From positions 2,046,001 to 2,110,000 of the forward strand of contig NC_019678.1 in NCBI RefSeq assembly GCF_000316665.1: a stretch of DNA of 64,000 nucleotides, read 5' to 3'. Made by a program: the position numbers and the translations under genes. The stretch is from Rivularia sp. PCC 7116. Its GTDB lineage: Bacteria; Cyanobacteriota; Cyanobacteriia; Cyanobacteriales; Nostocaceae. Under the pieces are notes generated by a model. It saw only the letters and a list, made by a program, of their open reading frames with translations. It was not told the DNA's origin and did not search any database. Positions 20,951-39,884 of the stretch are shown here, one piece after another (position 1 is the first letter of the stretch; every line of letters starts with the position of its first letter).

Positions 20951-22099
20951 ATGTCAAATATTAAGAGTGCATCGGATAAAAATTTACTTTTTGGTGTTGC
21001 CTATGATGATTTTATTGATCGTATGAATCAAGCCGCCAAAGAAATGGGTCACGAGGATGTTTTCTTTTGCCATGATAAAGAGGCGAATCTGATTGCAATG
21101 ATTGCAATTCATGACAAAGGTTTAGGAGCGGGACAAAGCATGGGTGCAACACGTTTATGGCCTTATACAAACCAGGAACATGCTTTAAAAGACGTTCTTC
21201 GTCTTAGTCGTGGCATGACCTATAAAGCTGCTTGCGCTAATATTCCTGTTGGTGGTGCAAAAGCAGTAATTATTGCTAAACCCGAACAGAAATCAGAGAG
21301 AATGCTTAGAGCATATGGACGTTTTGTCGAGAGTTTAGAGGGACGTTTTATTACAGGTCAAGATGTAAATATATCTACTGAAGATGTTCGAGTAATTCGT
21401 CAAGAAACTAAGCATGTTGTAGGTGTATCAGAAAAATGTGGAGGGCCAGTTCCTATGACTGCTATGGGAGTTGTTCTAGGAATTAAGGCTGCTGTCAAGT
21501 TTCGTTTACATAAAGAAAACCTTAATGGGCTATCTGTTGCAATTCAAGGAGTTGGCAATATAGGAAAAAATCTCTGTCAACAATTGCATGAGCATGGAGT
21601 AAAACTATTTGTAACTGATACAATTAAGGAAAGAGCAGAAGAAGTTAAAGATTTATATGGGGCAATTGTTGTCAACTCAGATGAGATTTATTCTCTTAAC
21701 GTCAATGTTTTCGCCCCTTGTGCTTTAGGAGGGATTCTTAATAGTTCAACTATTCCTCTTATTAAAGCTCCCATTATCGCAGGTGCTGCCAATAATCAGC
21801 TTGAAGATGAACAAATACATAGCAAGCTGCTTGAATCAAAAGGAATACTTTATTGTCCAGACTATGTGATAAACGCTGGAGGATTAATTAATGTTTATAA
21901 TGAGATGATTGACACTGATGAAGAGCATATCCTAAAACAAGTTAATAATATTTACAACACTCTCCTTGATATTTTTAAGATATCTGAAGAAGAGGAAATA
22001 AATACACATGAGGCTGCTAAGCTTCTTGCCGAGGAACGCATTATGAAAGCTAAAAACTTTAATAAGGCTCTACATATGCCTAGTTTATTACTCTCGTAG
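20951..22099 (+). CDS. Glu/Leu/Phe/Val dehydrogenase family protein (ScyB/leucine-dehydrogenase-like)
   Basis: 382 residues. The substrate domain has MGATRLWPY and the catalytic lysine loop IPVGGAKAVI; the NAD domain has VAIQGVGNIGKNL (GxGNxG). The C-terminal PDYVINAGGLINVYNE is the Leu/Phe dehydrogenase signature. The family interconverts L-amino acids and 2-oxo acids with NAD. In cyanobacteria the close relative ScyB oxidises tryptophan to indole-3-pyruvate for scytonemin. Here it stands alone, 900 bp upstream of the LuxE-LuxC operon and on the same strand as the trp genes 12 kb away. It could supply a 2-oxo acid to the chain-extension enzymes or aminate their product (inference). Leucine, valine or tryptophan specificity cannot be told by eye. 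Confidence 0.85.
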   Translation: MSNIKSASDKNLLFGVAYDDFIDRMNQAAKEMGHEDVFFCHDKEANLIAMIAIHDKGLGAGQSMGATRLWPYTNQEHALKDVLRLSRGMTYKAACANIPVGGAKAVIIAKPEQKSERMLRAYGRFVESLEGRFITGQDVNISTEDVRVIRQETKHVVGVSEKCGGPVPMTAMGVVLGIKAAVKFRLHKENLNGLSVAIQGVGNIGKNLCQQLHEHGVKLFVTDTIKERAEEVKDLYGAIVVNSDEIYSLNVNVFAPCALGGILNSSTIPLIKAPIIAGAANNQLEDEQIHSKLLESKGILYCPDYVINAGGLINVYNEMIDTDEEHILKQVNNIYNTLLDIFKISEEEEINTHEAAKLLAEERIMKAKNFNKALHMPSLLLS

Positions 22100-22740: not shown

Positions 22741-22756
22741 GTAGTTTTATCCAGAT

Positions 22757-22954: not shown

Positions 22955-23022
22955 TGTTTTTTCACAATGACTTTCTTACAGTTGAAGATAAAAATGCAAT
23001 TAATTAAGTGTGAGGTTTGGGC

Positions 23023-24090
23023 ATGATTTCCTACAACGATCCGTTTGTAGCCAAACTTGATGAAGATATCCGATATCTGTTAGAGCATGAAGATCGAAAG
23101 AAAATGGCGGATGTTCGCTCTCGTCTTGAAACTTTAGGTCAATCGAACTGTCCGAGTTTAACTCGTTATTGGCATAAAACCCAAAAAGGTTTCGGGGTAC
23201 CGGATAAAGTATTTAAGGGTGAATCTCCTTATTATTTCCCAGATGCCCCCCCGGTAAAGGTATTTTGTACTAGCGGCACTTCTGGAGCAAAGCCAGGGCG
23301 TTGTTATTATTCTGCCCGTGGCTTAGCCTTAATGGAAGCAGCAGTGATGCAAGCAGCTAAAAAATATTTGATTAAAGACTTAGAAAAACCAGCTATTATT
23401 CGACTCTTGCCCAGCCAACAGGCAGCACCCGAAATGATTATGGCCTATGGGATGGAGCTAATTGCTCGCACCTTTGGAGCAGCACAGTTAAGTCAATCCG
23501 TAGTTACAGAAAGAGGATTTGATAATGACTTATTTGTGAAATTACTTGCTCAAGCACAAGCAGAAGAACGTCCTGTGATCTTGATTGGTGGTTCTTTTGC
23601 TTGTGTGAATGTTATGGATGCTTTGCAACAAGAAAAAATCAAGTTTCAATTGCCTTTAGGTTCACGTATGGTAGATGCAGGCGGGTTTAAAGGACGCTCT
23701 CGCGAGGTAGCTGTACCTATGCTCTATCAGTTAGCTCAAGATGTATTTGGAATTACACCTGAACTTTGTATAAATATTTTTGGCATGACGGAATTAGCGA
23801 GTCAATTGTATGACACCTCTACTTGCAGCTTAGGTCCTCTTGGGGAACGCCCTAAAGCCGGTAGTGCTACTGTTGTACCGTTAGTGCGAAATAGTTTGAC
23901 AATGGAGCCTATCTCGGAAGGGTTAGGGTTGTTAGAGATAGCTGATTTGTGCGTACTTGATCGACCTTATTCTGTTTTAACTGGGGATTTAGCCATTCAG
24001 ACAACAGAAGGAGTTGCAATTGTAGGACGGGCACAGCAAGGAGAGGTTCGCGGCTGCTCCTTAAATCTTGAAGTTATGTCATCCCATTAA
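23023..24090 (+). CDS. LuxE-like acyl-protein synthetase (adenylate-forming)
   Basis: 355 residues from the ATG at 23023, chosen over the upstream TTG at 23017 because GTGAGG lies 8 nt before it. The motif FCTSGTSGAKPGRCYY near residues 82-97 is the ATP-binding P-loop of the acyl-protein synthetase (LuxE) branch of adenylate-forming enzymes. INIFGMTELASQLYD near residue 250 is the A5-like motif. LuxE activates a carboxylic acid with ATP and passes the acyl group to a cysteine of itself and then LuxC. At 355 residues it matches LuxE. The next gene, 15 bp downstream, is LuxC-like, so the pair should form a carboxylate reductase complex. No luxA, luxB or luxD is present, so this is not a bioluminescence operon; the acid is probably made by the downstream chain-extension enzymes (inference). 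Confidence 0.85.
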   Translation: MISYNDPFVAKLDEDIRYLLEHEDRKKMADVRSRLETLGQSNCPSLTRYWHKTQKGFGVPDKVFKGESPYYFPDAPPVKVFCTSGTSGAKPGRCYYSARGLALMEAAVMQAAKKYLIKDLEKPAIIRLLPSQQAAPEMIMAYGMELIARTFGAAQLSQSVVTERGFDNDLFVKLLAQAQAEERPVILIGGSFACVNVMDALQQEKIKFQLPLGSRMVDAGGFKGRSREVAVPMLYQLAQDVFGITPELCINIFGMTELASQLYDTSTCSLGPLGERPKAGSATVVPLVRNSLTMEPISEGLGLLEIADLCVLDRPYSVLTGDLAIQTTEGVAIVGRAQQGEVRGCSLNLEVMSSH

Positions 24091-24105
24091 TGGGGAGTTT
24101 AAACA

Positions 24106-25566
24106 ATGCACAACGAAATTTCTTATTTACCATCTTGGTTAAAGTCAGTTCAAATAGAAAATTTACAGTTGTATTCTAATGATAAGGATGGAGAAGCTTG
24201 GATTTGCACGCGTCCAAAAGCTGGATGTTGGGCTGATGTGGGGGTCGGTTTACAGGCGGCACGCGAACGCTTACAGTCACTATCAATCAAGCAGATTATA
24301 GAGTCCATTGGTCAGGTTGCTCAGCAGTGGTTAGATCCAGATTTTCAACCGAGAATAGATACTATTGAGCGTGTAGCTCAGTCTAGTTTATTTTCACCAG
24401 AGTCGGTGGCCGAAAGTTTTGATGTAGAACTGCGTAATTATTTGCCTGGTTATTTATGGAAGGTATTGTACAGAGAGCTAGTCGATCCGCAGGTTTTAGA
24501 TTGCTTTCGGCAAGATATTCACCTCAAGGGGTATGCTCGAGCATTAGGACCCAAAACTACTTTATCTATTTTTACCGGAAATGTACCTGGTTTACCCGCC
24601 TTATCTATGGTGCGGTCTTTATTAGTTAAAAGCCCCATTATTGCTAAGGTCGCTTCGGGAGAACCTTGTTTCGCCGCAGCCTTCGCCAAAACTTTGGCCG
24701 AAGTCGAGCCGATATTTGGTGAATCTATAGTATGTACCTATTGGCGACGGGATGAAGAATCTTATTTTTCAGAGGTTTTGACTCAGGCCGACGCAGTGAT
24801 TGCTTATGGTAGTGATGCAGCCTGTGCAAAAATTCGTAAACAAATACAGCTAGGTCAAGCTTACTTTGAACATGGACATAAATTTTCTCTGGGATTAGTA
24901 GATGAGTCATACATCGAACATTTTGGCGAGCAACAATTGGCTAAAGCGATTGCCAGAGATACTTGTGTTTTTAATCAGCAAGCTTGTATTGCGCCTCAAA
25001 TATATTGCGTAGTAGGACCAGAATCCCTAGCAGAGCGTTTGGCCGAAAAAACTGCTAAGGCATTAGCAGACTATGAACAGAAAGTACCATTAGGTAATTT
25101 ATTACCTAATGATGCTGCTGCTTTACAAATGAAGCGTGCTACTTTACAGTGGCAAGCGGCTTTGCAAGACAAGCTGAGCTTGTGGCAAAGTACTAATAGT
25201 CTAGCCTGGACATTGACAATTCAGTCGCAGATTTCTAGTCACCAGGGTGGTCATCGACGTTATTTGAGTTTGATTTCAGTCCCGGATTTGGCTACTGTTA
25301 TGGCACAATTACGACCTATTGCACAACAGGATTACTTGCAAAATGTGGCATTGGGTTTAGTTGGAGCAAATTTGATTTCTACAGCAGAACAACTAGCACA
25401 GTTGGGAGCTACACGTATTTGCCAACCAGGTCGTATGGTCGATCCCAGCATGATGTGGCGTCATGATGGCCGCGTATGTGTGAGTGAACTTTTGCACTGG
25501 TGCGATGTCGAAATGCATGAGGATTGGCAAATCTCAGGAGAGAAAAATGGTACAAGCATCTACTAA
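24106..25566 (+). CDS. LuxC-like acyl reductase (aldehyde-forming)
   Basis: 486 residues of the LuxC family in the aldehyde dehydrogenase superfamily. Visible elements are the nucleotide-binding stretch LSIFTGNVPGLPALSMVRSL and the catalytic cysteine Cys294 in FNQQACIAPQ. Known LuxC enzymes take the acyl group from LuxE onto this cysteine and reduce it with NADPH to the aldehyde. The gene follows LuxE by 15 bp and its last 20 bp overlap the next gene, so expression is coupled. A second catalytic route (acyl-CoA substrate) is possible. The substrate is unlikely to be a long fatty acid here, since the operon also encodes 2-oxo-acid elongation enzymes. The family assignment is firm, the substrate is not. 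Confidence 0.85.
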   Translation: MHNEISYLPSWLKSVQIENLQLYSNDKDGEAWICTRPKAGCWADVGVGLQAARERLQSLSIKQIIESIGQVAQQWLDPDFQPRIDTIERVAQSSLFSPESVAESFDVELRNYLPGYLWKVLYRELVDPQVLDCFRQDIHLKGYARALGPKTTLSIFTGNVPGLPALSMVRSLLVKSPIIAKVASGEPCFAAAFAKTLAEVEPIFGESIVCTYWRRDEESYFSEVLTQADAVIAYGSDAACAKIRKQIQLGQAYFEHGHKFSLGLVDESYIEHFGEQQLAKAIARDTCVFNQQACIAPQIYCVVGPESLAERLAEKTAKALADYEQKVPLGNLLPNDAAALQMKRATLQWQAALQDKLSLWQSTNSLAWTLTIQSQISSHQGGHRRYLSLISVPDLATVMAQLRPIAQQDYLQNVALGLVGANLISTAEQLAQLGATRICQPGRMVDPSMMWRHDGRVCVSELLHWCDVEMHEDWQISGEKNGTSIY

Positions 25567-26767
25567 GATTGATATTATTGACTGTTCTTTACGTGATGGT
25601 GAACAGTCACCCGGAATTTGGTTTGATTTTGATGAAAAACTGGCGCTAGCCAGGGCTTTATCCGAAGCTGGTGTGGCGGTGCTAGATGCTGGTTTTCCTG
25701 CCTCTAGTTCTGAGGAAATAGAGATAATACAGGCTATCGCCCATGAAGACCTTGTTGCCACTTTAGGAGCTACAGCACGACCGATACACCGAGATATTGT
25801 CTCTGCTGACAAAGCCCATGCTGAAGAGGTTTTTTTGTTTATGCCTACCAGCAATTTGCGTCTCAACACTACACTCGGATGGAGTCGGGAAACTGCAAGT
25901 GACAACCTAACCCAGGCAGCTTGTCAAGCTGCTGAATTAGGTATGCAAATCGGCATTGTGTTCGAGGATGCGACCCGGGCTGACCCCACGTACATGATTG
26001 AGCTAGTGAACCGTTTGCAACAGGTATTACCTGAATGGATTGAACATATAATCATTGCTGATTCTGTAGGCTGTTCCAAACCTCAGAGTATGCAAGCATT
26101 GTTTCAGCAATTACATCAGGCTTGTGGTTCGGAAGTTACCTGGGTACCTCATTGTCATAATGATTTTGGTTTGGCCAGTGCTAACACTTTGGCTGCAGTA
26201 CAAGGAGGAGCACAGGCAGTAACTACTACGGTGAATGGGATTGGTGAACGAGCAGGTAATGCCGATTTAGCGGAAGTGGTAGCGGGATTAACCCATCTAT
26301 TGAATAAGTCGCATAATATTAACCCGCAAGCTTTAATGGATTTGTCTTTACTTGTAGCCCTTATAAGTGGCATTCCGGTTCATCCTTTAAAACCTGTAGT
26401 TGGACATAATGCTTTTCGTCATGAATCTGGGCTACACGTGGATGCGATGTTGAAAAATCATCATAGTTATGAATTTTTGCCCGCAGATTGGGTTGGTCGA
26501 AAGCGGGAATATGTAATCGGCAAACACAGCGGCTCATCAGCTTTAGTACAACACTTTTTGGAACAAAAAGGTGAGTCCCTTGGGCGTGAGATAGCGGAAG
26601 CTGTTCTGCAAAGGATTAAACATAAGCGGATGTCGGATTCTAAAGCAGAACATCAAGCTTGGTTTAAGACTTATCAAACAACCATTCAATACTTACTTGC
26701 TGGTGTGGATGAAGAATTTGTGGCAAACCAATATCAAAGGCTATGTGATGAAAAAAACCTTAAGTGA
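25547..26767 (+). CDS. Isopropylmalate/homocitrate synthase-like acyltransferase
   Basis: 406 residues from the ATG at 25547 (CAGGAGAG at 25535-25542); the longer frame from 25484 would overlap LuxC by 83 bp. DRE-TIM metallolyase: [11 protein letters not shown] at 13-23 with Arg16 and Asp17, metal-binding [18 protein letters not shown], then [17 protein letters not shown] and GKHSG. The regulatory LeuA dimer domain is absent, so the protein is the short NifV/homocitrate-synthase/HphA length and probably free of leucine feedback. These enzymes condense acetyl-CoA with a 2-oxo acid as the first step of one-carbon chain extension. It is followed with overlap by large- and small-subunit aconitase-like genes, the second step. 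The 2-oxo acid is unknown; 2-oxoglutarate, a branched-chain acid or indole-3-pyruvate are all possible. Confidence 0.82.
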
Positions 26768-28016
26768 CAAGATTATTGAATCTAAAACGATTGACAACAA
26801 CGAAGCAGACAGTCTGTATCAACGTGTGCGGATTGATGGACTATTAGGGCATGATGCAACTATTGCTTTATTGGCTCAGCAATTTGATGAATTAAATCTG
26901 AGTGTATGGGACCCAAGCCGGGTAATTTTTACCAACGATCACTTTTCCCCCCCAGCGACATCAGAGCGTGCAGATATTTCCAATCGATTTATTAAATTTG
27001 CCCAGGATCATCAGATTGGGAATCTACTACTAGATAAAGGAATTTGTCATCAGCTATTAGTAGAGCATCCGATATGTCAGCCAGGAGCACTGATTGTGGG
27101 AGCTGACAGTCACACTATCATGGGCGGTGGTTTAGGAGCTTGTGCTACAGGAATGGGGTCAACAGATATTTTATACGCCTTAGCCACTGGCACCACCTGG
27201 TTGCTCAGACCTGAGTCTATCAAAGTAGTATTTCGTGGTAGTCTTCCTCCTGAATGCAGTGGGCGCGATGTAATTTTGGAGTTGATGCATCGCTTAGGAG
27301 AAGAGGGCGCACAATACCGCACCTTGGAGTTCCATGATTTAAGTCATTCGCGCTTGAACCAAGACGATCGCTTTGCGATTGCCAATATGGCAGTTGAATG
27401 TGGTGGTAAATTTGGTATATTTGTACCGGATGAAATTACAGAGGCATATCTAAAGCTGCGGGATAGAAAAGTGGACAAAAGTTCGTGGCTTTATCCAGAT
27501 TCCGATGCAGTGTACCTTAAGCATATTGAGATAGATTTGGATCAATTGTCACCTCGTGTTGCCAAGCCATGGTCACCAAGCAATGTAGTACCCATTGAAG
27601 CTTTAGATTCTATACCCATTACCACAGCTTTTTTAGGCTCCTGTTCCAGTGGTCGTTTAAGTGATATTGCGGATGCAGCACAAGAATTAGAGGGCAAAAC
27701 CATTCATCCTCGCATACGCTTTGTGGTAATTCCAGCTTCCCAACAAGTGTTTCAGGAGGCTTTGAGCAAGGGGTATGTGCTTACTTTAACCCGCTCGGGA
27801 GCTGTGTTTAATCAAAGCAGTTGTGGCCCTTGTGGTGGCATTGATAAAGGGGTGCTGGGGGCACAAGATGTGTGTGTTTCTACCTCAAATCGTAATTTCC
27901 GTGGACGTATGGGACATTGGGAGAGCCAAACTTATTTGGCTAGTGCCCGGACTGTAGCCAAGGCGGCATTGGCCGGTGCCTTAAAACCAGATTTATATAA
28001 TATTGAGGTGTTCTGA
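26748..28016 (+). CDS. Homoaconitase/isopropylmalate isomerase large subunit-like
   Basis: 422 residues from the ATG at 26748, which overlaps the previous gene by 20 bp; the frame opens further upstream, but that part is inside the synthase gene. The 4Fe-4S ligands are intact: [10 protein letters not shown] and SSCGPCGG (C-x2-C). Substrate-side words [17 protein letters not shown] and [14 protein letters not shown] match the LeuC/homoaconitase branch. It dehydrates and rehydrates the product of the synthase, moving the hydroxyl by one carbon, in a heterodimer with the small subunit encoded immediately after (TGATG overlap). The HDAT motif in place of the HEVT of LeuC favours a homoaconitase-like or other non-leucine substrate. 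The organism should also have a housekeeping leuC; this is a cluster copy. Confidence 0.83.
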
Positions 28017-28519
28017 TGAAAATACTCGATCGGATTAAAGGACAGGCTTGGTGTTTTGGGGATAATCTGAATACAGATGTGATTCACTCACCGCGCTTTT
28101 TCAGTCTAGATCCAGAAGTGATAAAGAAAGGCTTGTTTCATGGTTTAGATCCGAACATTCAAGCCAACATACAGCCGATGGATGTGATAGTCGGCGGTAT
28201 CAACTTTGGTTGTGGTTCCAGCCGTGAAACCTCCGTTAGAAGTTTGTGCTTGAATAAAGTTGGTGCGATTATTGCCGTTGATTTTGCTCGTATTTTTTTT
28301 CGTAATTGTACTAATATGGGCTTGCCCTGTTTGATGTTTAAAAACCCCAATGACTTCTCACGCATTAACACTGGCATGACTTTACAAGTAGATGCTTTGG
28401 CTGGGCGTATTTTACTGCCAGATCGAACTGAAATTCAGTGCAAGCCGGTGAATGATTTCATTCGTAATATTTGGGTGAAAGGTGGGCTTTTAGCGACTTT
28501 GCCACAATCAAATAAGTAA
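28016..28519 (+). CDS. Homoaconitase/isopropylmalate isomerase small subunit-like
   Basis: 167 residues, the swivelling domain that completes the aconitase active site. It has DNLNTDVIHSPRF near the start, GGINFGCGSSRETSV (the family's GCGSSRE loop) and IIAVDFARIFFRNCTNMGLP. The length matches archaeal-type LeuD/HacB (160-170) rather than the 200-residue enterobacterial LeuD. The ATG shares an A with the stop of the large-subunit gene (TGATG), which fits equimolar production of the two subunits. It should act with the large subunit on the product of the isopropylmalate-synthase-like enzyme. No 3-isopropylmalate dehydrogenase (LeuB) follows, although the third step of any such extension needs one. 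Confidence 0.85.
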   Translation: MKILDRIKGQAWCFGDNLNTDVIHSPRFFSLDPEVIKKGLFHGLDPNIQANIQPMDVIVGGINFGCGSSRETSVRSLCLNKVGAIIAVDFARIFFRNCTNMGLPCLMFKNPNDFSRINTGMTLQVDALAGRILLPDRTEIQCKPVNDFIRNIWVKGGLLATLPQSNK

Positions 28520-28523
28520 AAAT

Positions 28524-29483
28524 ATGAGAAACTCGCGATTAAAAGTCCTTAGCTGGCAGGGTGGTTGGGGAAGTGCCTTTTGGCGGTGTGTCGCTGAACC
28601 GCTTACAGCACGCTTTGGCATCGAGGTAGAGATTTTTCCTCATGTGGGACTGAGCTTGCCCGATCCTTTGCCACAGGTAGATTTGGTTTGGTGTAATACG
28701 ATTGCAGCCCATAAAGCAGCGAGTCTTGGACAGGTTCTCCCTTGTTCTCCTCAAATAAAAGATGTCTGTGCCGCTTTATCTTCAAGAATTTTGGGCGTTT
28801 TAGATGGGATTGTACATACTTATTCCATACCTTATGTGTTAGTTTACAATCATAAGCGCGTGTCATCTTTTGATAGTTGGCAAGATCTACTTAAACCAGA
28901 ATACTGTGGAAAAATTGCATTTTACCCAGGAGGGAATGGTTTTTTCCCGATTGCCCAAGTCATTGCTGGTGGATGCTTAGAGGAAATGCCAGATAACATG
29001 ACACCGTGCTGGCGTTTTTTGGAACAACTGGTGCCGCAGTTGGGTTCTTTGGATTACAGCATTGGCATGGAAAAATTGTTTGAACAAGAAAAAATCCTAC
29101 TGGCTTTTAGAGCCTTAACCAATGCCTTAGCATTTGAACAAGCAGGCTTACCTGTAAGTTGGATGATTCCCAAAGAAGGTACTTGCGTGACAGAGGATGG
29201 TTTTTTTATACCTAAAGGCACAGAAAAGGCTCAAGTTGAAGCGGCCGAGTTATTAATTCAATTTGCTCTAACCCCTAATGTACAAACCCAGTGGTGCAAG
29301 GCTTTAGGTGCTATTCCGATGCATTTGTCAGCACAAACGCCTGAGTTGCTCGTCGATCATCCTTTATTGCCATCGGCTCCAGAGGCTATGGATAAACTTT
29401 TGCGTTTGCCTAAGGCAGTAGAACTGCATCATAGTCTCGAATGGGAAAAGAAATTTTCTCAATTGGTCTTATTATCAGCTTAA
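28524..29483 (+). CDS. PotD-like periplasmic-binding-fold protein lacking a signal peptide
   Basis: 319 residues of the type 2 periplasmic binding fold: LKVLSWQGGWGSAF at the very N-terminus aligns with the mature start of PotD/ABC substrate-binding proteins, and DSWQDLLKPEYCGKIAFYP is the usual inter-domain segment. There is no Sec or Tat signal and no lipobox; residues 1-5 are simply MRNSR. The protein is therefore expected to stay in the cytoplasm. No ABC permease or ATPase lies nearby. It begins 4 bp after the aconitase small-subunit gene, in the same operon. It could be a ligand-binding partner of the enzymes, a chaperone for the intermediate, or an enzyme built on this fold, as THI5 is for thiamine. 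This is inference; a wrong start is unlikely since the upstream gene ends immediately before. Confidence 0.75.
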   Translation: MRNSRLKVLSWQGGWGSAFWRCVAEPLTARFGIEVEIFPHVGLSLPDPLPQVDLVWCNTIAAHKAASLGQVLPCSPQIKDVCAALSSRILGVLDGIVHTYSIPYVLVYNHKRVSSFDSWQDLLKPEYCGKIAFYPGGNGFFPIAQVIAGGCLEEMPDNMTPCWRFLEQLVPQLGSLDYSIGMEKLFEQEKILLAFRALTNALAFEQAGLPVSWMIPKEGTCVTEDGFFIPKGTEKAQVEAAELLIQFALTPNVQTQWCKALGAIPMHLSAQTPELLVDHPLLPSAPEAMDKLLRLPKAVELHHSLEWEKKFSQLVLLSA

Positions 29484-29599: not shown

Positions 29600-30334
29600 A
29601 TGAAAAAATTTAGTGAAAAAAACAAACCAAATATTGACCCTTCATTAGGATGGGAAAATTACTGGAATCAAACCTCGAATGGATCTACGGCAGTTCTGTG
29701 GGAATGCAAGCCAGAAAAAGCGGCGGCTTTAGACTTAGCTCATTTCAAAGACTTGATGGATCTCGGACTACCTATAATTGACTTCGCCTGTGGACATGGT
29801 ACTCAAACTCGTTTTCTTGCGGATCATTTTCCTTTAGTGATTGGAATTGATGTTTCTAAAAGTGCTATAGCAATGGCGCAGACACAGAATAATGCCTCGA
29901 ATATTGAGTACCGCGTACTCGATGGTTGTAAGACGGAGCGAGCAGTTGAACTCCACTCAGAGATTGGAGATGCCAACATTTATATGAGGGCAGGATTGCA
30001 TCATATTCCCTCCCAAAAGCGGTCCGACTTTATCCGCTCTTTAGAAATACTCTTAGGTGAGAAAGGTCTTTTATACCTGATTGAGCTAAGTGCTAACTCA
30101 GACGATCGGCTTTTTTCACTTTCCGATACTAATGAAGTGTCGCAGGTAATGAAACATGGACTAAAACCTGGTTCTATCGGATTGGAAGATATCGTACAAC
30201 TTTTCCCTAACTTTGAAGTGCTGTCCTCAGGAGAACAGTTATTGAGAGGAAGTGTTCTTACTTCTCCTGATGGAGAAGTAAGAAAGCGTGAATTGACATT
30301 GACAGGTTTTTATGCAGTAATCAGGCATAAATAA
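29600..30334 (+). CDS. Class I SAM-dependent methyltransferase
   Basis: 244 residues from the ATG at 29600 (a TTG at 29591 is in frame but less likely). The core has IIDFACGHGTQTRFL (motif I, with Ala-Cys in place of the usual Gly-x-Gly), GIDVSKSAI and RAGLHHIP, the last like the small-molecule methyltransferase group. It lies 116 bp after the PotD-like gene on the same strand and 160 bp before the flavin oxidoreductase, so it is probably part of the same pathway, either in one transcript or separately. It would methylate O, N or a carboxyl of the product; which is unknown. The closing LTGFYAVIRHK is typical of the family. Confidence 0.75.
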   Translation: MKKFSEKNKPNIDPSLGWENYWNQTSNGSTAVLWECKPEKAAALDLAHFKDLMDLGLPIIDFACGHGTQTRFLADHFPLVIGIDVSKSAIAMAQTQNNASNIEYRVLDGCKTERAVELHSEIGDANIYMRAGLHHIPSQKRSDFIRSLEILLGEKGLLYLIELSANSDDRLFSLSDTNEVSQVMKHGLKPGSIGLEDIVQLFPNFEVLSSGEQLLRGSVLTSPDGEVRKRELTLTGFYAVIRHK

Positions 30335-30493: not shown

Positions 30494-32425
30494 ATGATTG
30501 AAGTATGTATCATTGGTTTTGGATTTAGCGCAATTCCCTTAGTTCGTGAATTGGAGCGTACTAAGACCGACTATCAGATAATCAGCGCAGATAATGATAG
30601 TGTATGGGACAAATTGGATAAAAGCGGAAACTTAGATTTCAACCTAGTATCTAGCTACCAAACAAGCTTTTATTCGTTTGATTTAGTTAAAAATTATGAA
30701 AAGGATTACTATCCTACAGGAAAGCAATTTTATGAAATGCACAAACGATGGCGTGCTGTCTATGAAGACAGAATAATAAGAGATTTTGTTGTCAAAATAG
30801 ATAACTTCAAAGACCATAGTTTAATTACCACATCTTCTGGACGAATACTTGAAGCTAAATCTGTAGTTATTGCGACAGGCTTTGGTCGTCAGATGAACTC
30901 ATTTCTAAATGATTTTGACTTTAATGTATCAAACAAGACATTTGTTTTAGGGGGGATGGGGGATTCCGCTAACTTAATCCTAGCTAAACTAATACCTAAC
31001 AATAACAAAGTTATTATCAGAGGTAATGGCTTTATGCCATTAGATCAACAAAATAATATTTGGGGAAAAAGATTTACCTTAGATCAAACAGAAGCTCATA
31101 ATTTCAGATATATTTCTCATGAGAAATATAATGAGCTAATAATGGGTCCCACGAACAATAAATCTACAAATCCAAGTCTATTATGGAACCAATTTCCATT
31201 AATTAAGCGTGATTGTAGTTGGAAGAAAGGACATTCGGATAATTCGTCTCCTGGTCATGGGTTAGTTTGGATCAAATATTGGCCAATTGATGAATATTGT
31301 CGGAATTTTGGCGCTGACTTAGAAGGATCTATTTCTAAGGGATATTTATTGAATGATATCGCAATGTGGTTACATACTGGGAAGGTTATACTTGTTCCAC
31401 CTGATACACCCATTGATTTTGAGAACAAGAGCGTTACTTATGCAGGTATAGAAAGAAGATTCGATCAATATATTAAAGGCGATGCTGAAAAACCTAGGCT
31501 CCCAGAAATTCTGATTGATGGAGTAACTCCTTATGAGTATCTGTATAGAGATAACTTTATGGGTGTTATTCCTCAAAATCTAAACAATATTTATCTGCTT
31601 GGATATACTCGCCCATTGACTGGTGGTCTGGCAAATATTACTGAAATGCAAAGTTTGTTTATCCATAAACTTCTAACTCAGCCTAAATTTCATAGCCATA
31701 TACATCACAACTTGAGCGAGCGTATTACAGCTTACAATCAGTACTACTATGGTAATAGCGAACCTTTTAAGACCGACCACACAATCTTATACGGTTTTTA
31801 CACGGAAGACATTGCAAGGTTGATTGGAATTGACCACAAGCTTAGTGAGTGTAAGTCTCTAAAAGATTTGATTTTCTACTACGCTTTTCCTAATAATGCC
31901 TATAAGTATCGCCTTAAAGGAGAATATGCCATTGATGGAATCGAGGAATTAATTGAGAAAGTGAATAGGGATTATGACAACTATATCTCAATCTTTGTCC
32001 TATTTCTCAATGCTGGATACATTAAAACAGAGAACCTTGCCGAATGGCTCCATAAATCTAAACACTTCTTATTCAATGATATGAGATATAAAGAGGAATA
32101 CAGAGCATTTCTTGATGATTACATCAATGCTTATCGTCGAGTCAAAAATATATCCGTTGATGAGAGTGTGGATGAAGAATGGGATTCCATGGTGAGTGAA
32201 GCCTGTAAGGTGAGAGATCGGGTTGCGACTGCGGTTGAGGATAATATCGATGATTCGTTTGATAATGACACTTTCACTGCAGTAAAGTTAGTTTCGTCTC
32301 TAATTGAGTCAAGCGATGGTGATTATTCTAAGTATATTAAGTCTGAGCTTGATTCTAAACGTATTCACGTAATTAAATCTTTGTGGGAACCTGTGGAGTA
32401 TGATTTACCATATCTCTGCGATTAG
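30494..32425 (+). CDS. Flavin-dependent oxidoreductase/monooxygenase with C-terminal extension
   Basis: 643 residues. The N-terminus VCIIGFGFSAIPLVRELER is an FAD-binding Rossmann motif (GxGxxA variant), and a second dinucleotide motif, VLGGMGDSANLIL, occurs near residues 152-166. AKSVVIATGFGRQ is the ATG motif between them. The pattern fits FMO/lysine-N-hydroxylase-like flavoproteins. The C-terminal 220 residues are helical, acidic and without similarity I recognise, making it longer than the 420-550-residue norm. A GGAGAACAG sequence precedes the ATG. Given the 2-oxo acid and aldehyde chemistry upstream, possible roles are N- or C-hydroxylation or a Baeyer-Villiger step. The oxidoreductase call is reasonable; the reaction is not known. 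Confidence 0.7.
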   Translation: MIEVCIIGFGFSAIPLVRELERTKTDYQIISADNDSVWDKLDKSGNLDFNLVSSYQTSFYSFDLVKNYEKDYYPTGKQFYEMHKRWRAVYEDRIIRDFVVKIDNFKDHSLITTSSGRILEAKSVVIATGFGRQMNSFLNDFDFNVSNKTFVLGGMGDSANLILAKLIPNNNKVIIRGNGFMPLDQQNNIWGKRFTLDQTEAHNFRYISHEKYNELIMGPTNNKSTNPSLLWNQFPLIKRDCSWKKGHSDNSSPGHGLVWIKYWPIDEYCRNFGADLEGSISKGYLLNDIAMWLHTGKVILVPPDTPIDFENKSVTYAGIERRFDQYIKGDAEKPRLPEILIDGVTPYEYLYRDNFMGVIPQNLNNIYLLGYTRPLTGGLANITEMQSLFIHKLLTQPKFHSHIHHNLSERITAYNQYYYGNSEPFKTDHTILYGFYTEDIARLIGIDHKLSECKSLKDLIFYYAFPNNAYKYRLKGEYAIDGIEELIEKVNRDYDNYISIFVLFLNAGYIKTENLAEWLHKSKHFLFNDMRYKEEYRAFLDDYINAYRRVKNISVDESVDEEWDSMVSEACKVRDRVATAVEDNIDDSFDNDTFTAVKLVSSLIESSDGDYSKYIKSELDSKRIHVIKSLWEPVEYDLPYLCD

Positions 32426-32702: not shown

Positions 32703-33719
32703 ATGATCTACAAATTTTTACGTTTTGCGACCAAAACAGCGTTTTCTCAACATTTTATTGGTATTAGCGTTTTAGTCGCCGTCATAGTCTGGACTTGTTG
32801 GTTATTTTTCGCTGGTCCGCGTTTTGCTTTCGCTAATCTAATAAATAATTGGGGAGTTGCTGTAACGATGGTTTTTGGCTCCATGATTGCTGGTGGCACC
32901 AGCATGGGTGGTGGAGCAGTTGCCTTTCCCGTTTTCACCAAAGTGCTTCAAATCCCTCCACACGAATCAATGGTATTCTCTTTAGCTATTCAAAGTATAG
33001 GAATGACAGCAGCTTCATTAACAATTATGGCTATGGGTACTAAAGTAGAGTGGCGGTTCATCTTATGGGCTAGTCTTGGCGGTATCCTGGGGATAATATT
33101 AGGTTCAGTATTTTTAGCGCCCATTTTACCCCCACCTGTAATTAAAGTTTCTTTTACGATGATTGTCAGTAGCTTTGCTGTTATTTTATTTGCTTTAAAT
33201 CGAAAAATTAGAAGCAGAAATTTAATTATTCCTGTTTGGGGTCAAACAGAGCAATTACTCTCAATAATAGCAGGAATTATAGGAGGAACTATTAGCGGTC
33301 TTGTGGGCAGTGGTATGGATATTTTGGGCTTTTCTGTCATGGTATTACTGTTCGGATTATGCGAAAAAGTTAGTACGCCGACCTCGGTAATTTTAATGGC
33401 TATAAATGCTGTAGCTGGATTTATCCTTCATAAATTCTTTATTGGTGACTTTGTACAACCTGTAATTAGTTATTGGTTAGCAGCAGTACCAGTAGTAGTA
33501 GTAGGTGCGCCAACAGGAGCCATTTTATGTAGTTTTTTACAACGTCATACTGTTGCCAGGATACTTATTGGTCTTATCTTTATTGAATTAGTCAGTTCTT
33601 TTTTGCTTCTGCCTTTACATTTTGGTTTAATCTGCTACGCTCTAATTATTTTTATAGTTTTTCTATTAATATATTATCGAATGTATAAAACAAATTTATA
33701 TATAAAGAAGGATTTATAA
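32703..33719 (+). CDS. TauE/SafE-family membrane permease
   Basis: 338 residues with eight or nine hydrophobic helices. Duplicated motifs are typical of the TauE/SafE (DUF81) sulfite/organic-anion exporters: first half GSMIAGGTSMGGGAVAFPVF and second half GGTISGLVGSGMDILGFSVM. Known members move sulfoacetate, sulfite or other small organic acids. It is on the same strand as the operon before it and 35 bp upstream of the DAHP-synthase-domain gene. It might export the product of the cluster or import a sulfur compound; nothing in the sequence decides this. A basic tail of about 15 residues follows the last helix. Confidence 0.85.
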   Translation: MIYKFLRFATKTAFSQHFIGISVLVAVIVWTCWLFFAGPRFAFANLINNWGVAVTMVFGSMIAGGTSMGGGAVAFPVFTKVLQIPPHESMVFSLAIQSIGMTAASLTIMAMGTKVEWRFILWASLGGILGIILGSVFLAPILPPPVIKVSFTMIVSSFAVILFALNRKIRSRNLIIPVWGQTEQLLSIIAGIIGGTISGLVGSGMDILGFSVMVLLFGLCEKVSTPTSVILMAINAVAGFILHKFFIGDFVQPVISYWLAAVPVVVVGAPTGAILCSFLQRHTVARILIGLIFIELVSSFLLLPLHFGLICYALIIFIVFLLIYYRMYKTNLYIKKDL

Positions 33720-34314: not shown

Positions 34315-36519
34315 ATGTTTATTGATACTTCTCACTATAAAACTAAAGGTGAAATTTGCGTATCTCGCACTGTAACTGAAATTTTAATGGAAAATGCGAC
34401 TGAAGGGATTTTATCACGTATTGATTCTCAGCGTGGAGGCTTCCTCAAAAGTAACTATGAGTACCCCGGACGATATAAAAGATGGGCGATAGGTTTTATT
34501 AATCCACCCCTAGAATTAGCAACTCGTGAGAATTCTTTTAGGCTTACAGCGCATAACAACCGAGGTTTATTGCTATTGAAATATTTGGTAGAGCGTCTTT
34601 ACAAGTTACCGCAATTACAGAATGTTGCTTTAGAGAAAAATTGTGTCACTGGCTCTATTCAACCATCAGAATGCTTATTTGCAGAAGAAGAGCGAAGTAA
34701 ACAACCATCTGTTTTCAATGTTGTTAGAGAAATTCTATATGCGTTTGAAAGTTCTCTAGATAAACATTTGGGACTTTACGGTGGGTTTGGTTACGATTTA
34801 GTTTTCCAGTTTGAATCAATTGCGAAACATCTCGAACGCTCTCCACAGCAGCGAGATATGTTACTTTATCTACCTGATGAATTGGTTATTGTTGACTACT
34901 ATCAACAACAAGCATTTCTTTACCAGTATGAATTTGAGACTACATATGGTAGCACTAAGAATTTACCTCGTAATGGTGAATTCATTAGTTATAGAGGCAA
35001 TCAAAATATTTCCCCTCAGACTTCCGATCATGAAAGAGGTGAATATGCAAACCAAGTTAAAAAAGCATTAGATTATTTCCGTCGAGGTGATTTCTTTGAA
35101 GTTGTTCCTTCTCAAAACTTTTTTCAAACTTACGAACAGTCTCCAGCAAAACTTTTCCGAACACTGCAACAGGTTAATCCTAGTCCCTATGGATTTATCT
35201 TTAATTTAGGTGGAGAGTATTTAATTGGTGCATCTCCAGAAATGTTTGTACGGGTAGAAGGTAAGCGTGTTGAAACTTGCCCTATTAGCGGTACAGTTAA
35301 ACGAGGAAAAGATGCAATTGATGATGCGGCTCAAATCCTGAAGCTTCTTAACTCACACAAAGACGAATCTGAATTAACCATGTGTACCGACGTAGACCGC
35401 AATGACAAATCGCGGATTTGCGAGCCTGGTTCGGTACGAGTAATTGGTCGCCGTCAAATCGAAATGTACAGTCATTTAATCCATACGGTAGACCATGTTG
35501 AAGGTTTGTTGCGACCTGGCTTTGATGCTTTAGATGCCTTTTTAGCTCATACTTGGGCGGTGACGGTAACTGGCGCACCGAAGAAGTCAGCCATCGAGTT
35601 TATCGAACAGAACGAACGTAGTGCCAGACGTTGGTATGGTGGAGCAGTAGGCTGGTTAAACTTTAACGGTAATTTGAATACCGGGTTAATTTTACGGACA
35701 ATTCGACTCGAACATTCAATTGCGGAAGTGCGAGTTGGTGCAACTATATTATATGATTCTATTCCTGCAGCAGAAGAACAAGAAACCTTAACTAAAGCCG
35801 CTGCCGCTTTTGAAACCATTCGCCGCGCTAAGGAAAAAACTAAAGCTTTAGGAGATGTTTCAAATTCTTTAAGTGATTGTATTCCTAATATAGAATCAGA
35901 TAAACGCATTTTATTAATTGACTGTGAAGATTCTTTTGTTCACACCTTAGCTAACTATATTCGCCAAACTGGAGCTTTGGTGAAAACATTACGTCACGGT
36001 TTTGATGAAGAACTTTTTGATACGGAAAAACCCGATTTAGTTGTATTGTCTCCAGGTCCGGGTAGACCAAGTGATTTTAAAGTTTCCCAAATAATTGCCG
36101 CTTGTATGTGTCGTAATATTCCGATGTTCGGGGTATGTCTGGGATTGCAAGGTATTGTTGAAGCTTTTGGTGGAGAATTAGGAGTTTTAGATTATCCACA
36201 ACACGGTAAATCTTCGCGGATTAAGGTTACTGACTCGAATTCGGTAATGTTTAAAGACTTACCTAAATCTTTTACAGTGGGTAGATATCATTCCTTATTT
36301 GCATTACCTGAAAAGTTTCCTCAAGAATTAAAAGTTACGGCAATGTCAGAAGATAATGTAATTATGGCAATCGAACATAAAACATTACCAATTTCAGCCG
36401 TACAGTTTCATCCCGAATCTATTATGACTTTAGTAGGAGAGGTCGGTTTAGCAATAATTAAAAATGTTGTTTACAAGTATACAACATCTAAAAAGTCAGA
36501 AGTTGTGTCTATGGGTTAG
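34315..36519 (+). CDS. trpE: Fused anthranilate synthase, components I and II (TrpE-TrpG)
   Basis: 734 residues. Residues 1-520 form component I: the N-terminal part ends with the chorismate-binding core, with GDFFEVVPSQNFF, LIGASPEMFVRVEG, CPISGTVKRGKD and a C-terminal GGAVGWLNFNG. Residues 525-725 are the glutamine amidotransferase: LLIDCEDSFVHTLANYI, catalytic Cys near residue 606 in FGVCLGLQGIVEAFGG, and His/Glu near 700 in QFHPES. The fused type is used in secondary metabolism and in some bacteria for tryptophan, and the trp copies beside scytonemin genes have this fused form. It converts chorismate and glutamine to anthranilate. A genome copy of separate trpE and trpG is expected. trpC follows 149 bp downstream. 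Confidence 0.93.
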   Translation: MFIDTSHYKTKGEICVSRTVTEILMENATEGILSRIDSQRGGFLKSNYEYPGRYKRWAIGFINPPLELATRENSFRLTAHNNRGLLLLKYLVERLYKLPQLQNVALEKNCVTGSIQPSECLFAEEERSKQPSVFNVVREILYAFESSLDKHLGLYGGFGYDLVFQFESIAKHLERSPQQRDMLLYLPDELVIVDYYQQQAFLYQYEFETTYGSTKNLPRNGEFISYRGNQNISPQTSDHERGEYANQVKKALDYFRRGDFFEVVPSQNFFQTYEQSPAKLFRTLQQVNPSPYGFIFNLGGEYLIGASPEMFVRVEGKRVETCPISGTVKRGKDAIDDAAQILKLLNSHKDESELTMCTDVDRNDKSRICEPGSVRVIGRRQIEMYSHLIHTVDHVEGLLRPGFDALDAFLAHTWAVTVTGAPKKSAIEFIEQNERSARRWYGGAVGWLNFNGNLNTGLILRTIRLEHSIAEVRVGATILYDSIPAAEEQETLTKAAAAFETIRRAKEKTKALGDVSNSLSDCIPNIESDKRILLIDCEDSFVHTLANYIRQTGALVKTLRHGFDEELFDTEKPDLVVLSPGPGRPSDFKVSQIIAACMCRNIPMFGVCLGLQGIVEAFGGELGVLDYPQHGKSSRIKVTDSNSVMFKDLPKSFTVGRYHSLFALPEKFPQELKVTAMSEDNVIMAIEHKTLPISAVQFHPESIMTLVGEVGLAIIKNVVYKYTTSKKSEVVSMG

Positions 36520-36530
36520 ACAGTAATAAT

Positions 36531-36668: not shown

Positions 36669-37520
36669 ATGAATCAATTGTCCAATATCGATAGAATTCA
36701 TATGCTAACTAGGCCCCGACACATACTTGAGGAAATAGTCTTGCATAAAAGGCAAGAAGTTGCAATGATGCGATTGGAATCTCCTTTAGCTAAGGTACAA
36801 GAGCAACTAAAAGATGCACCAAAGGTAAGAGATTTTTTAAAGGCTTTGCAAGATAATTCTCACAGTCCTAGTTTAATTGCAGAAGTAAAAAAAGCATCGC
36901 CAAGTAAAGGAATTATTCGGGAAGATTTTGACCCAGTTAATATAGCCCAAGCATATGAAAAAGGCGGAGCAGCCTGTCTTTCAGTTCTCACAGACAGTCG
37001 TTTTTTTAAAGGTAGCTTTGACAACTTACGTAGAGTTAGGAAAAGCGTAGAATTACCGCTATTATGCAAAGAATTTATTGTTGATTTATATCAAATATAT
37101 TTAGCTAGAACTGCGGGCGCTGATGCAGTACTCTTGATTGCAGCTATTTTATCCGACGTACAGTTGAAAGACTTTTTGCGGGTAATTCACAGCTTGAAAA
37201 TGACAGCTTTAGTAGAAGTTCATACTCCTTCAGAATTAGATAGAGTGTTAAGACTTCCTGACGTAAAATTGGTAGGAATTAACAACCGCAATCTAAAGAA
37301 TTTCACTGTAAATTTAGCAAATACAGAAAAATTGATTGCTCAAAGGAAATCGCAATTGCAAAGTTTCGGAATTACCGTTATTAGCGAATCTGGTATATAT
37401 ACACCTGATGATTTAGATTTTGTCGAAAAAGCTGGCGCTCGTGCCGTTTTAGTCGGAGAATCTTTAGTTAGGCAGCCCGATGTGGAAGATGCGGTACGGC
37501 AATTAATCAGTGAACAGTGA
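36669..37520 (+). CDS. trpC: Indole-3-glycerol-phosphate synthase
   Basis: 283 residues of the IGPS TIM barrel. Family words: [13 protein letters not shown] near the start, [16 protein letters not shown] (phosphate-binding and catalytic Lys), [57 protein letters not shown] and the C-terminal [14 protein letters not shown]. It converts carboxyphenylaminodeoxyribulose phosphate to indole-3-glycerol phosphate, which TrpA then cleaves. The ATG at 36669 gives about 12 extra N-terminal residues; the ATG at 36702 is an alternative start nearer the conserved part. The last codons and the stop lie at the edge of a tandem repeat (CAGTGAACAGTGAGCAG). Neighbours are trpE upstream and trpA downstream, with no trpD or trpF. 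Confidence 0.93.
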
Positions 37521-37706: not shown

Positions 37707-38546
37707 ATGATTGCAATATCTCAACGTTTTGAAGAATTAAGAAAATCTAATACTTGTGCTTTAATTCCGTTTATTACTGCGGGTGACCCGGATTTAGAAA
37801 CTACTGAAGCAGCACTGAAAATCTTGGATAAAAATGGTGCTAGTTTTATTGAGCTAGGGGTTCCTTATTCCGACCCTTTGGCTGATGGCCCAGTAATTCA
37901 AGCTGCTGCTACTCGTGCTTTGGCAAAAGGTACGAAGTTGGATAATGTTTTACAGATGTTGAAGACATTAACTCCCCAATTACAAGCACCGATTATTCTA
38001 TTTACTTATTACAATCCCATCTTAAATTTAGGGGTTAAAGAGTTTTTAGCAAAAGTCGCCGAAGTTGGTGTCAAAGGGTTAGTAGTTCCCGATTTGCCAT
38101 TGGAAGAAGCTGAAAATTTGATAGAGTCAGCTAAAGAATTTGGCATCGAGCTAACTTTGCTCGTAGCTCCTACGAGTTCCAAGGATAGAATCAGCGCGAT
38201 CGCTAAATATTCTCAGGGTTTTATCTACTTAGTGAGTGTAACCGGTGTTACTGGAGTCCGTTCTGGTCTACAAACTCGCGTCAAGGATATTCTAGATGAC
38301 TTACGCGGAGTCACCGATAAAGCAATTGGTATCGGTTTCGGCATTTCCAGGGGGGAACATGCTGCTCAAGCAAAAGAATGGGGTGCTGATGCAGTAATCG
38401 TAGGTAGTGCTTTAGTAAAGCGATTAGCAAACGGTACTCCTGAAGAAGGATTAAAAGCAGTCGAAGAACTCACCAAAGAATTAAAAGCTGCAATTTCTAG
38501 CGAGCAGTTAGCAGTGAACAGTGAACAGTTAACAGTTAGGATTTAA
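37707..38546 (+). CDS. trpA: Tryptophan synthase alpha subunit
   Basis: 279 residues. TIM barrel with [36 protein letters not shown] (catalytic Glu in IELG, Asp in YSDP), [25 protein letters not shown] and [12 protein letters not shown]. It releases indole from indole-3-glycerol phosphate and channels it to TrpB. The family normally ends near residue 264, after a helix like KELKAAI; here about 15 residues follow ([14 protein letters not shown]) that are encoded by repeats of CAGTTAGCAGTGAACAG type. So an STRR has extended the C-terminus. A GCGATCGC octamer occurs near 38197. The gene follows trpC at a 186-bp distance filled largely with repeats, and trpB follows 99 bp later. Confidence 0.94.
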
Positions 38547-38645: not shown

Positions 38646-39884
38646 ATGGTCAGTACTCCAGATATCAGTTCAAAAATTTCATCAGTTGCTCGTCCCGACA
38701 ATTTGGGAAGATTTGGAAAGTTCGGTGGAAAGTACGTACCCGAAACTTTAATGCCAGCTTTGCTAGAATTGGAAACTGCTTACGAAAAGTATCGTAATGA
38801 CCCCGATTTCAAAGCTGAATGGAATGGTTTATTGCGCGATTATGTAGGAAGACCAAGCCCCTTATACTTTGCAGAGCGTTTGACTCAACATTATGCAAAA
38901 CCAGATGGCTCTGGAGCGCAAATTTATTTAAAGCGTGAAGATTTAAACCATACCGGCGCTCACAAAATTAACAATGCTTTAGCTCAAGTTTTGTTGGCTA
39001 AACGCATGGGTAAACAAAGAATTATCGCTGAAACCGGAGCAGGACAACACGGTGTTGCAACTGCTACAGCTTGCGCTCGTTTTGGTTTGAAGTGCGTGAT
39101 TTTCATGGGTATTCACGACATGGAAAGACAAGCGCTCAACGTATTCCGGATGCGATTGATGGGAGCGGAAGTTAGCCCTGTAGAAGCTGGAACCGGAACT
39201 TTAAAAGATGCAACTTCTGAAGCAATCCGCGACTGGGTAACAAACGTAGAAACTACACACTACATTTTAGGTTCCGTTGCCGGACCTCATCCTTACCCAA
39301 TGTTGGTACGCGATTATCACGCCATGATTGGTGCAGAAACTCGCAATCAATGTGAAGAAAAATGGGGAGGATTACCCGATATTCTTTTAGCTTGTGTTGG
39401 TGGTGGTTCCAACGCAATGGGACTATTTCACGAATTCGTTAACGAAGAATCCGTGCGTTTGATTGGAGTTGAAGCAGCCGGTGAAGGTGTCGCAACAGAA
39501 AAACACGCCGCAACTTTGACCAAAGGAAGAGTCGGAGTATTGCATGGTGCGATGAGTTATTTATTGCAAGATGGTGACGGACAAGTCATCGAAGCGCACT
39601 CAGTCAGCGCCGGTTTGGACTATCCCGGAGTTGGCCCAGAACACAGTTTTCTTAAAGATATGAATCGCGCTGAATACTATAGCGTGACCGATAAAGAAGC
39701 TTTGGATGCATTTAGAAAAGTGTCGGAACTAGAAGGGATTATTCCCGCACTAGAAACCGCTCACGCTTTTGCTTATTTAGAAAAACTCTGTCCTCAACTA
39801 GATGGCAGTCCTAAGTTAGTTATCAACTGTTCCGGTAGAGGTGACAAAGACGTGCAAACCGTAGCTAAAGTAATTAATCTTTAG
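38646..39884 (+). CDS. trpB: Tryptophan synthase beta subunit
   Basis: 412 residues, the normal TrpB1 length. The PLP lysine is in [13 protein letters not shown], the phosphate loop is GGGSNAMG, and [20 protein letters not shown] is the standard N-terminus. [10 protein letters not shown] and [14 protein letters not shown] are fully conserved. It joins indole with serine to make tryptophan in an alpha2beta2 complex with TrpA. AAGGAATATAAATCAAA lies before the ATG. It is the last gene of the trp set; a hairpin follows. A second trpB in the genome is likely if this is the secondary-metabolism set. Confidence 0.95.

Follow-up and report, generated by a model that had tools for sequence, protein, structure and literature searches.

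The 64,000-nt window analyzed here (Rivularia sp. PCC 7116, NC_019678.1, positions 2,046,001 to 2,110,000, forward strand) contains an operon of six intact genes, all on the + strand (23023–29483). We tentatively regard this operon, with slightly less than even confidence, as the central part of a cluster (ca. 20951–39884) for a specialised metabolite derived from tryptophan that would lead by a seven-step route to a halogenated carbazole-3-carboxylate. The product of the cluster is probably indole-derived, the balance is slightly in favor of the condensing enzyme of the operon acting on indole-3-pyruvate, and a carbazole ring as the outcome is possible, if somewhat doubtful. The gene context gives good support to an indole origin; the carbazole end goes beyond it. 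The gene set, the protein families, the conserved active sites, the gene context, the split among the ScyB sequences and the changes in the substrate pocket can be read from the sequences, and all the reactions and the product are inferred.

The operon encodes, in this order, a LuxE-like acyl-protein synthetase for carboxylate adenylation and acyl-Cys formation (23023..24090; 355 aa from ATG, with an alternative TTG start 6 bases upstream given by the ORF tool; PF04443), a LuxC-like acyl reductase for the NAD(P)H-dependent conversion of acyl to aldehyde (24106..25566; 486 aa; PF05893), a condensing enzyme of the homocitrate synthase/isopropylmalate synthase (HCS/IPMS) type (25547..26767; 406 aa; PF00682, PF22617), the large (26748..28016; 422 aa; TIGR02086, 421.6 bits, cut-off 410.15) and small (28016..28519; 167 aa; TIGR02087, 121.6 bits, cut-off 108.95) subunits of an aconitase/isopropylmalate isomerase-type enzyme, and a PotD-like solute-binding-fold protein (28524..29483; 319 aa; PF13416). 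The genes are separated by a 15 bp gap, overlaps of 20, 20 and 1 bp, and a 4 bp gap. The original prediction had described six tightly packed same-strand genes with such gaps and overlaps, and the open reading frame (ORF) calls confirmed this. Also the families it had named were all detected with Pfam scores exceeding the curated cut-offs (LuxE 45 bits, LuxC 228, HMGL-like 224 together with HCS_D2 66, Aconitase 286, Aconitase_C 43, and SBP_bac_8 68). Its expectation of 2-oxo acid extension, aconitase-type isomerisation or dehydration, and ATP-dependent reduction of a carboxylate is consistent with the conserved active-site residues of LuxE, LuxC, HCS and aconitase.

The operon belongs to a same-strand run of ScyB, the operon itself, a methyltransferase, an AetF-type halogenase, a TauE protein and TrpEG-C-A-B. 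While the six-gene set had been delimited correctly, the original prediction did not mention the neighboring genes for ScyB, the halogenase and the Trp enzymes, on which the present reading turns. In the proposed route, TrpEG, TrpC, TrpA and TrpB would raise the tryptophan supply, and ScyB would deaminate tryptophan to indole-3-pyruvate. The HCS-like enzyme would condense indole-3-pyruvate with acetyl-CoA, in a reaction analogous to that of HphA on phenylpyruvate, and the aconitase pair would dehydrate the resulting 2-(indol-3-ylmethyl)malate, possibly only to the cis-alkene diacid. Aconitase-type enzymes go via a cis-alkene, and since the cluster has no dehydrogenase, the diacid may be the end product of this step; pantaphos-type clusters are presumably a parallel for an alkene diacid as product. 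LuxE would then activate one carboxylate, the distal one, and LuxC would reduce the same carboxylate to an aldehyde. Indole C2 would attack the aldehyde, closing a six-membered ring that would become carbazole-3-carboxylate by loss of water, perhaps assisted by the binding-fold protein. The 2-malate, the 3-malate and the cis-alkene would all lead to the same ring with no further oxidation or reduction. Finally, the AetF-type enzyme would halogenate and the methyltransferase methylate the amino-acid-free product. A carbazole-3-carboxylate-type route unlike the Streptomyces one is the best reading of the cluster.

The condensing enzyme retains the motifs LRDGEQ, the ED pair, HxHND and GIGERAGN, and Pfam found no match to the allosteric C-terminal domain of LeuA in it. 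PMC12961565 lists Ala73, Asp157, Ala159, Met186 and Ser242 as the side-chain-selecting positions of HphA, four of which could be placed in the window enzyme by alignments to 6ktq and 3rmj and by MAFFT, where they correspond to Thr76, Gly136, Val138 and Ile169. The pocket residues are His/Arg/Thr/Ser in HCS and Leu/Glu/Ser/Asn in IPMS (Table 1 of PMC12961565). NifV-type rows of the alignment (three of the nine confirmed by family score; the host's own NifV 536 bits, cut-off 463) and two phosphonomethylmalate-synthase-like rows have Trp in position one of these four and Arg in position four, and a Streptomyces enzyme from a nonribosomal peptide synthetase (NRPS) cluster has Leu and Val, respectively. 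Where the rows of the LeuA, NifV and phosphonate types share a His, the window enzyme has Phe96. As aligned, the pocket fits neither HCS, IPMS, NifV nor the phosphonomethylmalate-synthase-like rows, and it appears hydrophobic, without the charge for 2-oxoglutarate. With such a pocket, matching neither HCS nor IPMS, the resemblance to the aminoadipate (homocitrate) route claimed by the original prediction fails; moreover, the genome has just two Iso_dh genes, assigned to leuB and icd from their family scores, and both are outside the window, which leaves no gene for an HphB-type or homoisocitrate dehydrogenase within it.

In the tree of 23 condensing enzymes, the window enzyme was placed outside the strongly supported clade (97/97) joining the NifV and phosphonate rows, and an FrbC- or phosphonomethylmalate-synthase-like function was rejected for this reason. 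The phylogeny recommended by the original prediction thereby separated the enzyme from these groups; the rows included no HphA, LYS20 or AksA. A function in leucine biosynthesis was likewise rejected, as the LeuA allosteric domain and a LeuB are lacking from the set and leuA, leuC and leuB were found elsewhere in the genome above their family cut-offs; the operon is hence not the host's only source of leucine genes, which the original prediction had named as a possible refutation. Also lysine biosynthesis was rejected, because the HCS residues for the side-chain carboxylate of 2-oxoglutarate are changed. HCS/IPMS matches were present in 374 of the 386 genomes of the phylum, and beyond the window's own gene those listed reached about 40% identity at most. 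An FrbC-like synthase gene was seen in a Bradyrhizobium plasmid cluster (L201), together with an aconitase pair, phosphoenolpyruvate mutase and a dehydrogenase, and with an acyl-homoserine lactone synthase and a P450 nearby.

Among the closest known systems is the Hph cassette (HphA/HphB/HphCD) for homophenylalanine. It shares with the operon an aconitase-type second step and, as predicted for the window enzyme, a first step in which a hydrophobic pocket accommodates the 2-oxo acid to be condensed with acetyl-CoA. The Hph cassette, however, includes an HphB-type dehydrogenase, in the stead of which the window has LuxE and LuxC. According to PMC12961565, the HphA variant A73L accepts indole-3-pyruvate, and homologated tryptophan has not been encountered in nature. 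A full chain-extension cassette with leuC, leuD, aminotransferase and dehydrogenase was observed in the Streptomyces NRPS plasmid cluster (L203).

The LuxE-like protein retains Cys345 in the C-terminal GCS motif and the LuxC-like protein Cys294 in the QQAC motif, which we take to be the acylated residues. They matched chains E (113 bits, via a 6-row profile including the window LuxE) and A (62 bits) of 7xc6, the solved LuxC–LuxE complex (PDB). The same two families, with both active-site Cys, form the fatty-acid reductase of bacterial luciferase systems; unlike in these, neither luciferase nor LuxD was seen in the Pfam scans run on the window ORFs, and the window LuxC scored only 84 bits against the LuxC equivalog model (cut-off 750). 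Among the 291 genomes of the order, the LuxE-like protein was detected in the host alone, and LuxC in 11 of 386 genomes across the phylum, with 24–31% identity in the ten non-host matches. A scan of GTDB with a LuxE alignment gave at least 79 loci, the listed matches being all at most 36% identical to the window LuxE, although orthologues outside cyanobacteria may have been missed. The conserved LuxC/LuxE–HCS/aconitase neighborhood for which the original prediction had suggested a search was not recovered: none of the 79 LuxE loci listed carried relatives of HCS, aconitase or the window's binding-fold protein (E 1e-8). Nor was any relative found among 26 LuxE pattern matches in viral contigs.

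The nearest LuxE/LuxC pairs found, 27–36% identical to the window pair, were in a widespread operon in which they are followed by a short-chain dehydrogenase/reductase (SDR), often with an ABC transporter or permease (L021–L025, L030–L108). A thiamine pyrophosphate (TPP) riboswitch element was detected in 81 of the 84 LuxE–LuxC–SDR loci with a model derived from seven of them, in which Rfam had given nine hits, the exceptions being L031, L094 and L107, of which L107 starts inside LuxE. This operon looks like a thiamin-regulated salvage path reducing a precursor carboxylate to aldehyde and alcohol, and the literature searched contained nothing on it. The window pair, by contrast, has no adjoining SDR or ABC transporter, and a thiamin link of the window operon was rejected, as no TPP element was present in the window.

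The aconitase-type large subunit retains the three cluster Cys and the DSHT motif, and the small subunit GSSRE; its loop reads FFSL, as compared to YKHM in two phosphonate enzymes. The binding-fold protein has no export signal, while a secreted homologue (L027) has a leader, and it is presumably either a cytoplasmic carrier or a cyclase or dehydratase of the solute-binding protein (SBP) fold. Enzymes of this fold that dehydrate and aromatise include MqnA and cyclohexadienyl dehydratase; with the lack of an export signal and the membership in the operon, these precedents suggest that the protein may be a cyclase. The single-sequence AlphaFold model of the protein was too poor for use (mean pLDDT 39).

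The halogenase (30494..32425, +; 643 residues) is of the AetF type, single-component and flavin-dependent (PDB AetF, 941 bits), and shares 404 of 604 aligned residues (66.9%) with AetF, the tryptophan halogenase of aetokthonotoxin. The catalytic residues are alike, K261 corresponding to AetF Lys258 and E200 to Glu200. According to section 3.4 of PMC10306068, eight residues surround the indole in AetF, and six of these are retained (Leu183, Leu196, Pro219, Phe524, Glu200 and Thr373), while Met216 is changed to Ile and Phe372 to Leu. Also four of the six residues around the first bromine are retained (Leu183, Met217, Pro250 and Leu254), Val220 and Phe372 being changed. In contrast, the four side chains reported in the same source to hold the amino and carboxyl groups of tryptophan, Gln500, Asp516, Ser523 and Lys587, are lost, their counterparts being Leu503, Leu519, Leu526 and Phe589; the AetF chain as printed has Ala at 523, and Phe589 is in a weakly aligned stretch. 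The loss of these backbone contacts, combined with a mostly retained indole pocket, suggests an indole or carbazole substrate without the amino-acid end.

Such a loss is not unique to the window halogenase. The only other close relative (56–58%), an AetF-like enzyme with a changed substrate pocket found in one of the 385 other genomes of the phylum (G042), adjoins an AMP ligase and a polyketide synthase (L207/L209), and it has also lost the backbone contacts while retaining four of the eight indole residues. Within the family, halogenase matches were found in three of the 217 genomes, the two non-host matches being 23–30% identical over short stretches.

The ScyB-type L-tryptophan dehydrogenase of the window (20951..22099, +; NF035922, 648 bits, cut-off 600), the putative source of indole-3-pyruvate, is one of two ScyB genes above the cut-off in the genome (648 and 672 bits); a third scored below it. 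The other is located about 0.27 Mb from the window copy in a scytonemin-type region, the proteins of which match five other ScyB neighborhoods and in which scyA, scyC–F, tyrA, tyrP and trpD were named by position and length. ScyB matches (E 1e-100 or better) were present in 124 of the 217 family genomes, and ten ScyB neighborhoods from nine genomes were examined. Five of them (L195 and L197–L200) are scytonemin clusters with scyA and scyC at 63–80% identity. In the other five (L191–L194 and L196, from genomes G609, G678, G692 and G647), the thiamine diphosphate (ThDP) enzyme is only 22–25% like ScyA. L191, L192 and L193 contain, according to Pfam, the ThDP enzyme, a KAS III-like protein and methyltransferases, with an adjoining protein of 223–233 residues, and tblastn found the same ThDP, KAS III and 223–233-residue-type proteins in L194 and L196. 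In L191 (E 1.9e-76) and L193 (E 2.4e-74), the 223–233-residue protein was found to match CqsB2, a carbazole synthase, and a CqsB2-type cyclase was found with tblastn in all five loci. With ScyB, the ThDP enzyme, KAS III and the CqsB2 match together, these five loci can be assigned by sequence to the Cqs/Nzs type of carbazole cluster; a carbazole cluster in Scytonema tolypothrichoides is already mentioned in a review (PMC7466098). Genes for a CoA ligase and an aromatic amino-acid lyase are additionally present in L193, L194 and L196; as a guess, these would fit a product like hyellazole, a 1-aryl carbazole.

The ScyB tree of 34 rows split the window copy (100/99) from 26 rows, including the own scyB, and placed it with seven rows (five genes) from the five carbazole-type clusters. 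Five neighborhoods of the 26 rows were inspected, and all were of scytonemin type (own, L195, L197, L198 and L199; L200 was absent from the tree). A topology joining the window ScyB with the own scyB was rejected (p-AU 0.007). The cluster resembles the actinomycete carbazole clusters for carquinostatin (Cqs) and neocarazostatin (Nzs) and their cyanobacterial counterparts in the start from tryptophan and indole-3-pyruvate, the supply of which is predicted also in the window from ScyB, and in the related ScyB. It differs from them in having the malate-synthase/Lux set instead of the ThDP enzyme, KAS III and CqsB2-type cyclase.

Also the scytonemin cluster (scyA–F with trpE/C/A/B) is similar to the window cluster in scyB and in trpEG-C-A-B, with the trp genes in the same order. 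The window ScyB, however, is from the other branch, and the core is LuxE-LuxC-HCS-Acn-SBP instead. When window ORFs of at least 100 aa were compared by blastp to the own scytonemin region, only scyB and trp were returned, with no match for scyA, scyC–F or tyrA. The trp set of the window consists of a fused anthranilate synthase TrpE-TrpG (34315..36519, +; TIGR01815, 1184 bits), TrpC (36669..37520, +), TrpA (37707..38546, +) and TrpB (38646..39884, +), the last three being 96, 98 and 99% identical to the scytonemin-cluster copies; TrpEG and ScyB are 74 and 64% identical as proteins. The genome has altogether three genes for indole-3-glycerol phosphate synthase (TrpC). The DNA identities to the scytonemin-cluster copies were 97% for trpC, 92% for trpA, 94% for trpB, 76% for trpE and 70% for scyB. 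The near-identity of trpC, trpA and trpB (36663–39884; 92–97% in DNA to copies about 0.24 Mb off) points to copying of these genes from the scytonemin cluster or to concerted evolution with it, and the pattern, with trpE and scyB less alike, suggests that part of an older duplicate was recently copied or underwent gene conversion.

Several observations weigh against the proposed carbazole route. The ThDP enzyme, KAS III and CqsB2 have no homologue in the window (tblastn with L191 and L193 queries, E 0.01), the sole match being a 20-residue piece of one ThDP query (E 0.004), and no recognisable cyclase was found in the window. The window ScyB is a long branch with an unsettled exact place on the carbazole side; a topology with the seven carbazole-cluster rows as a clade excluding it survived (p-AU 0.23), and it may be sister to all seven. 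The window also has no ORF matching trpD of the own scytonemin cluster (blastp). The condensing enzyme is another long branch with an unsettled placement among the IPMS types, its pocket readings derive from alignments and not from structures, and Thr/Gly/Val/Ile differ from the Ala/Asp/Ala/Met of HphA. In comparison to HphA, the enzyme keeps the catalytic residues and has a hydrophobic pocket unlike HCS or IPMS, but with non-HphA residues. A second copy of the cluster was not found in the searches made. The GC content of the operon (0.41–0.445) differs from that of ScyB (0.369) and the halogenase (0.355), and together with a TnpB fragment, a likely transposon relic, between scyB and luxE (22160–22582), this suggests that the operon may be a later insert.

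The last observation leads to the view that the LuxE-to-SBP genes are a horizontally acquired metabolic module and only chance neighbors of the tryptophan genes, which we consider unlikely. The higher GC content, the TnpB relic, the distance of at least 107 bp to the next gene and the restriction of LuxE to the host among the genomes of the order would all agree with it. The operon is nevertheless on the same strand and inside the scyB...trpE-C-A-B set, the halogenase, of which only the host's copy in the family is close, is equally rare, and the HCS pocket is hydrophobic. The aminoadipate-like route of the original prediction, from 2-oxoglutarate via homocitrate to homoaconitate and then Lux-type reduction, agrees with the family-level similarity to homocitrate synthase and homoaconitase. 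It is highly improbable, because all four placed HCS substrate residues are changed (the fifth listed position was not placed), the NifV rows, the host's own included, have Arg at the Ile169 position, a homoisocitrate dehydrogenase gene is lacking, and the tryptophan context would be left unexplained.

Two alternatives remain. HCS and aconitase form the first half of an Hph cassette and, joined by a transaminase and the housekeeping LeuB, could produce homotryptophan or a different homo-amino acid, LuxE and LuxC reducing this or a relative to an aldehyde. The indole-3-pyruvate accepted by HphA A73L and the Streptomyces NRPS plasmid cluster with dehydrogenase and aminotransferase, the synthase of which likewise has a small or hydrophobic residue, Val, at the Ile169 position, fit such a cassette. 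It is still distinctly unlikely, as the genome has no Iso_dh genes besides leuB and icd, neither of which is in the window, and LuxE and LuxC would be useless for plain amino-acid supply. A somewhat greater, though minor, chance is given to another indole product, reduced in open chain or cyclised differently, such as a lactone or an indolyl alcohol. Everything in the gene context that points to an indole substrate applies to it just as well, and the operon enzymes by themselves are no proof of ring closure. The carbazole reading is preferred over it by the position of ScyB on the carbazole-cluster side of the tree and by the HCS-built chain, which would be exactly long enough for closure on indole C2.

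The remaining genes of the run are a methyltransferase dependent on S-adenosylmethionine (29600..30334, +; Pfam; PDB 3ggd, 234 bits) and a TauE/SafE-family membrane protein (32703..33719, +; PF01925), possibly an exporter. The promoter and terminator scan gave no signal above chance. Elsewhere in the window, a separate lipid-type cluster (1021–12024) encodes a thioesterase–acyl carrier protein (ACP)–aminotransferase fusion, a fatty acid desaturase, an ACP, an AMP ligase, a major facilitator superfamily protein, and cyclopropane-synthase-like and other methyltransferases. A protein at 19048–19926 (−) weakly matches the TenA/heme-oxygenase-like fold (3dde, 44 bits), and a protein of 6379 residues (43042–62181) has Ig/cadherin-like domains and RHS repeats in its C-terminal part. 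The host genome comprises 8.73 Mb in three contigs, and its scytonemin-type genes and NifV suggest a nitrogen-fixing cyanobacterium.

A plasmid tblastn search with LuxC, SBP, the large aconitase subunit, HCS, LuxE, the halogenase, the methyltransferase and ScyB revealed no homologous cluster in the 19 regions inspected. The original prediction knew of no described cluster with this gene set, and the open-licence full-text literature searched agrees with it, containing nothing that fits the gene combination, nor the logic of extension plus cyclisation by a leucine-type module with a Lux reductase.

Simple halogenated carbazoles have been found in sediments, where their natural origin is disputed. 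From the cyanobacterium Kyrtuthrix maculans, such compounds are reported in PMC12210266. The papers listed by the literature search made no mention of polyhalogenated carbazoles. It is rather unlikely, yet not far-fetched, that the window cluster represents a second, chemically independent carbazole route, in which an IPMS/aconitase/Lux-reductase line would take indole-3-pyruvate to carbazole-3-carboxylate, followed by halogenation by an AetF relative blind to the amino acid. If true, the cluster would include an enzyme condensing indole-3-pyruvate with acetyl-CoA as well as a halogenase whose evolution has led it away from the free amino acid. Chain extension of the leucine type and a reductase of the bioluminescence type would then have been combined for the elongation and cyclisation of an aromatic 2-oxo acid. 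The cluster would also be the first gene set for simple halogenated carbazoles and would give them a testable origin.

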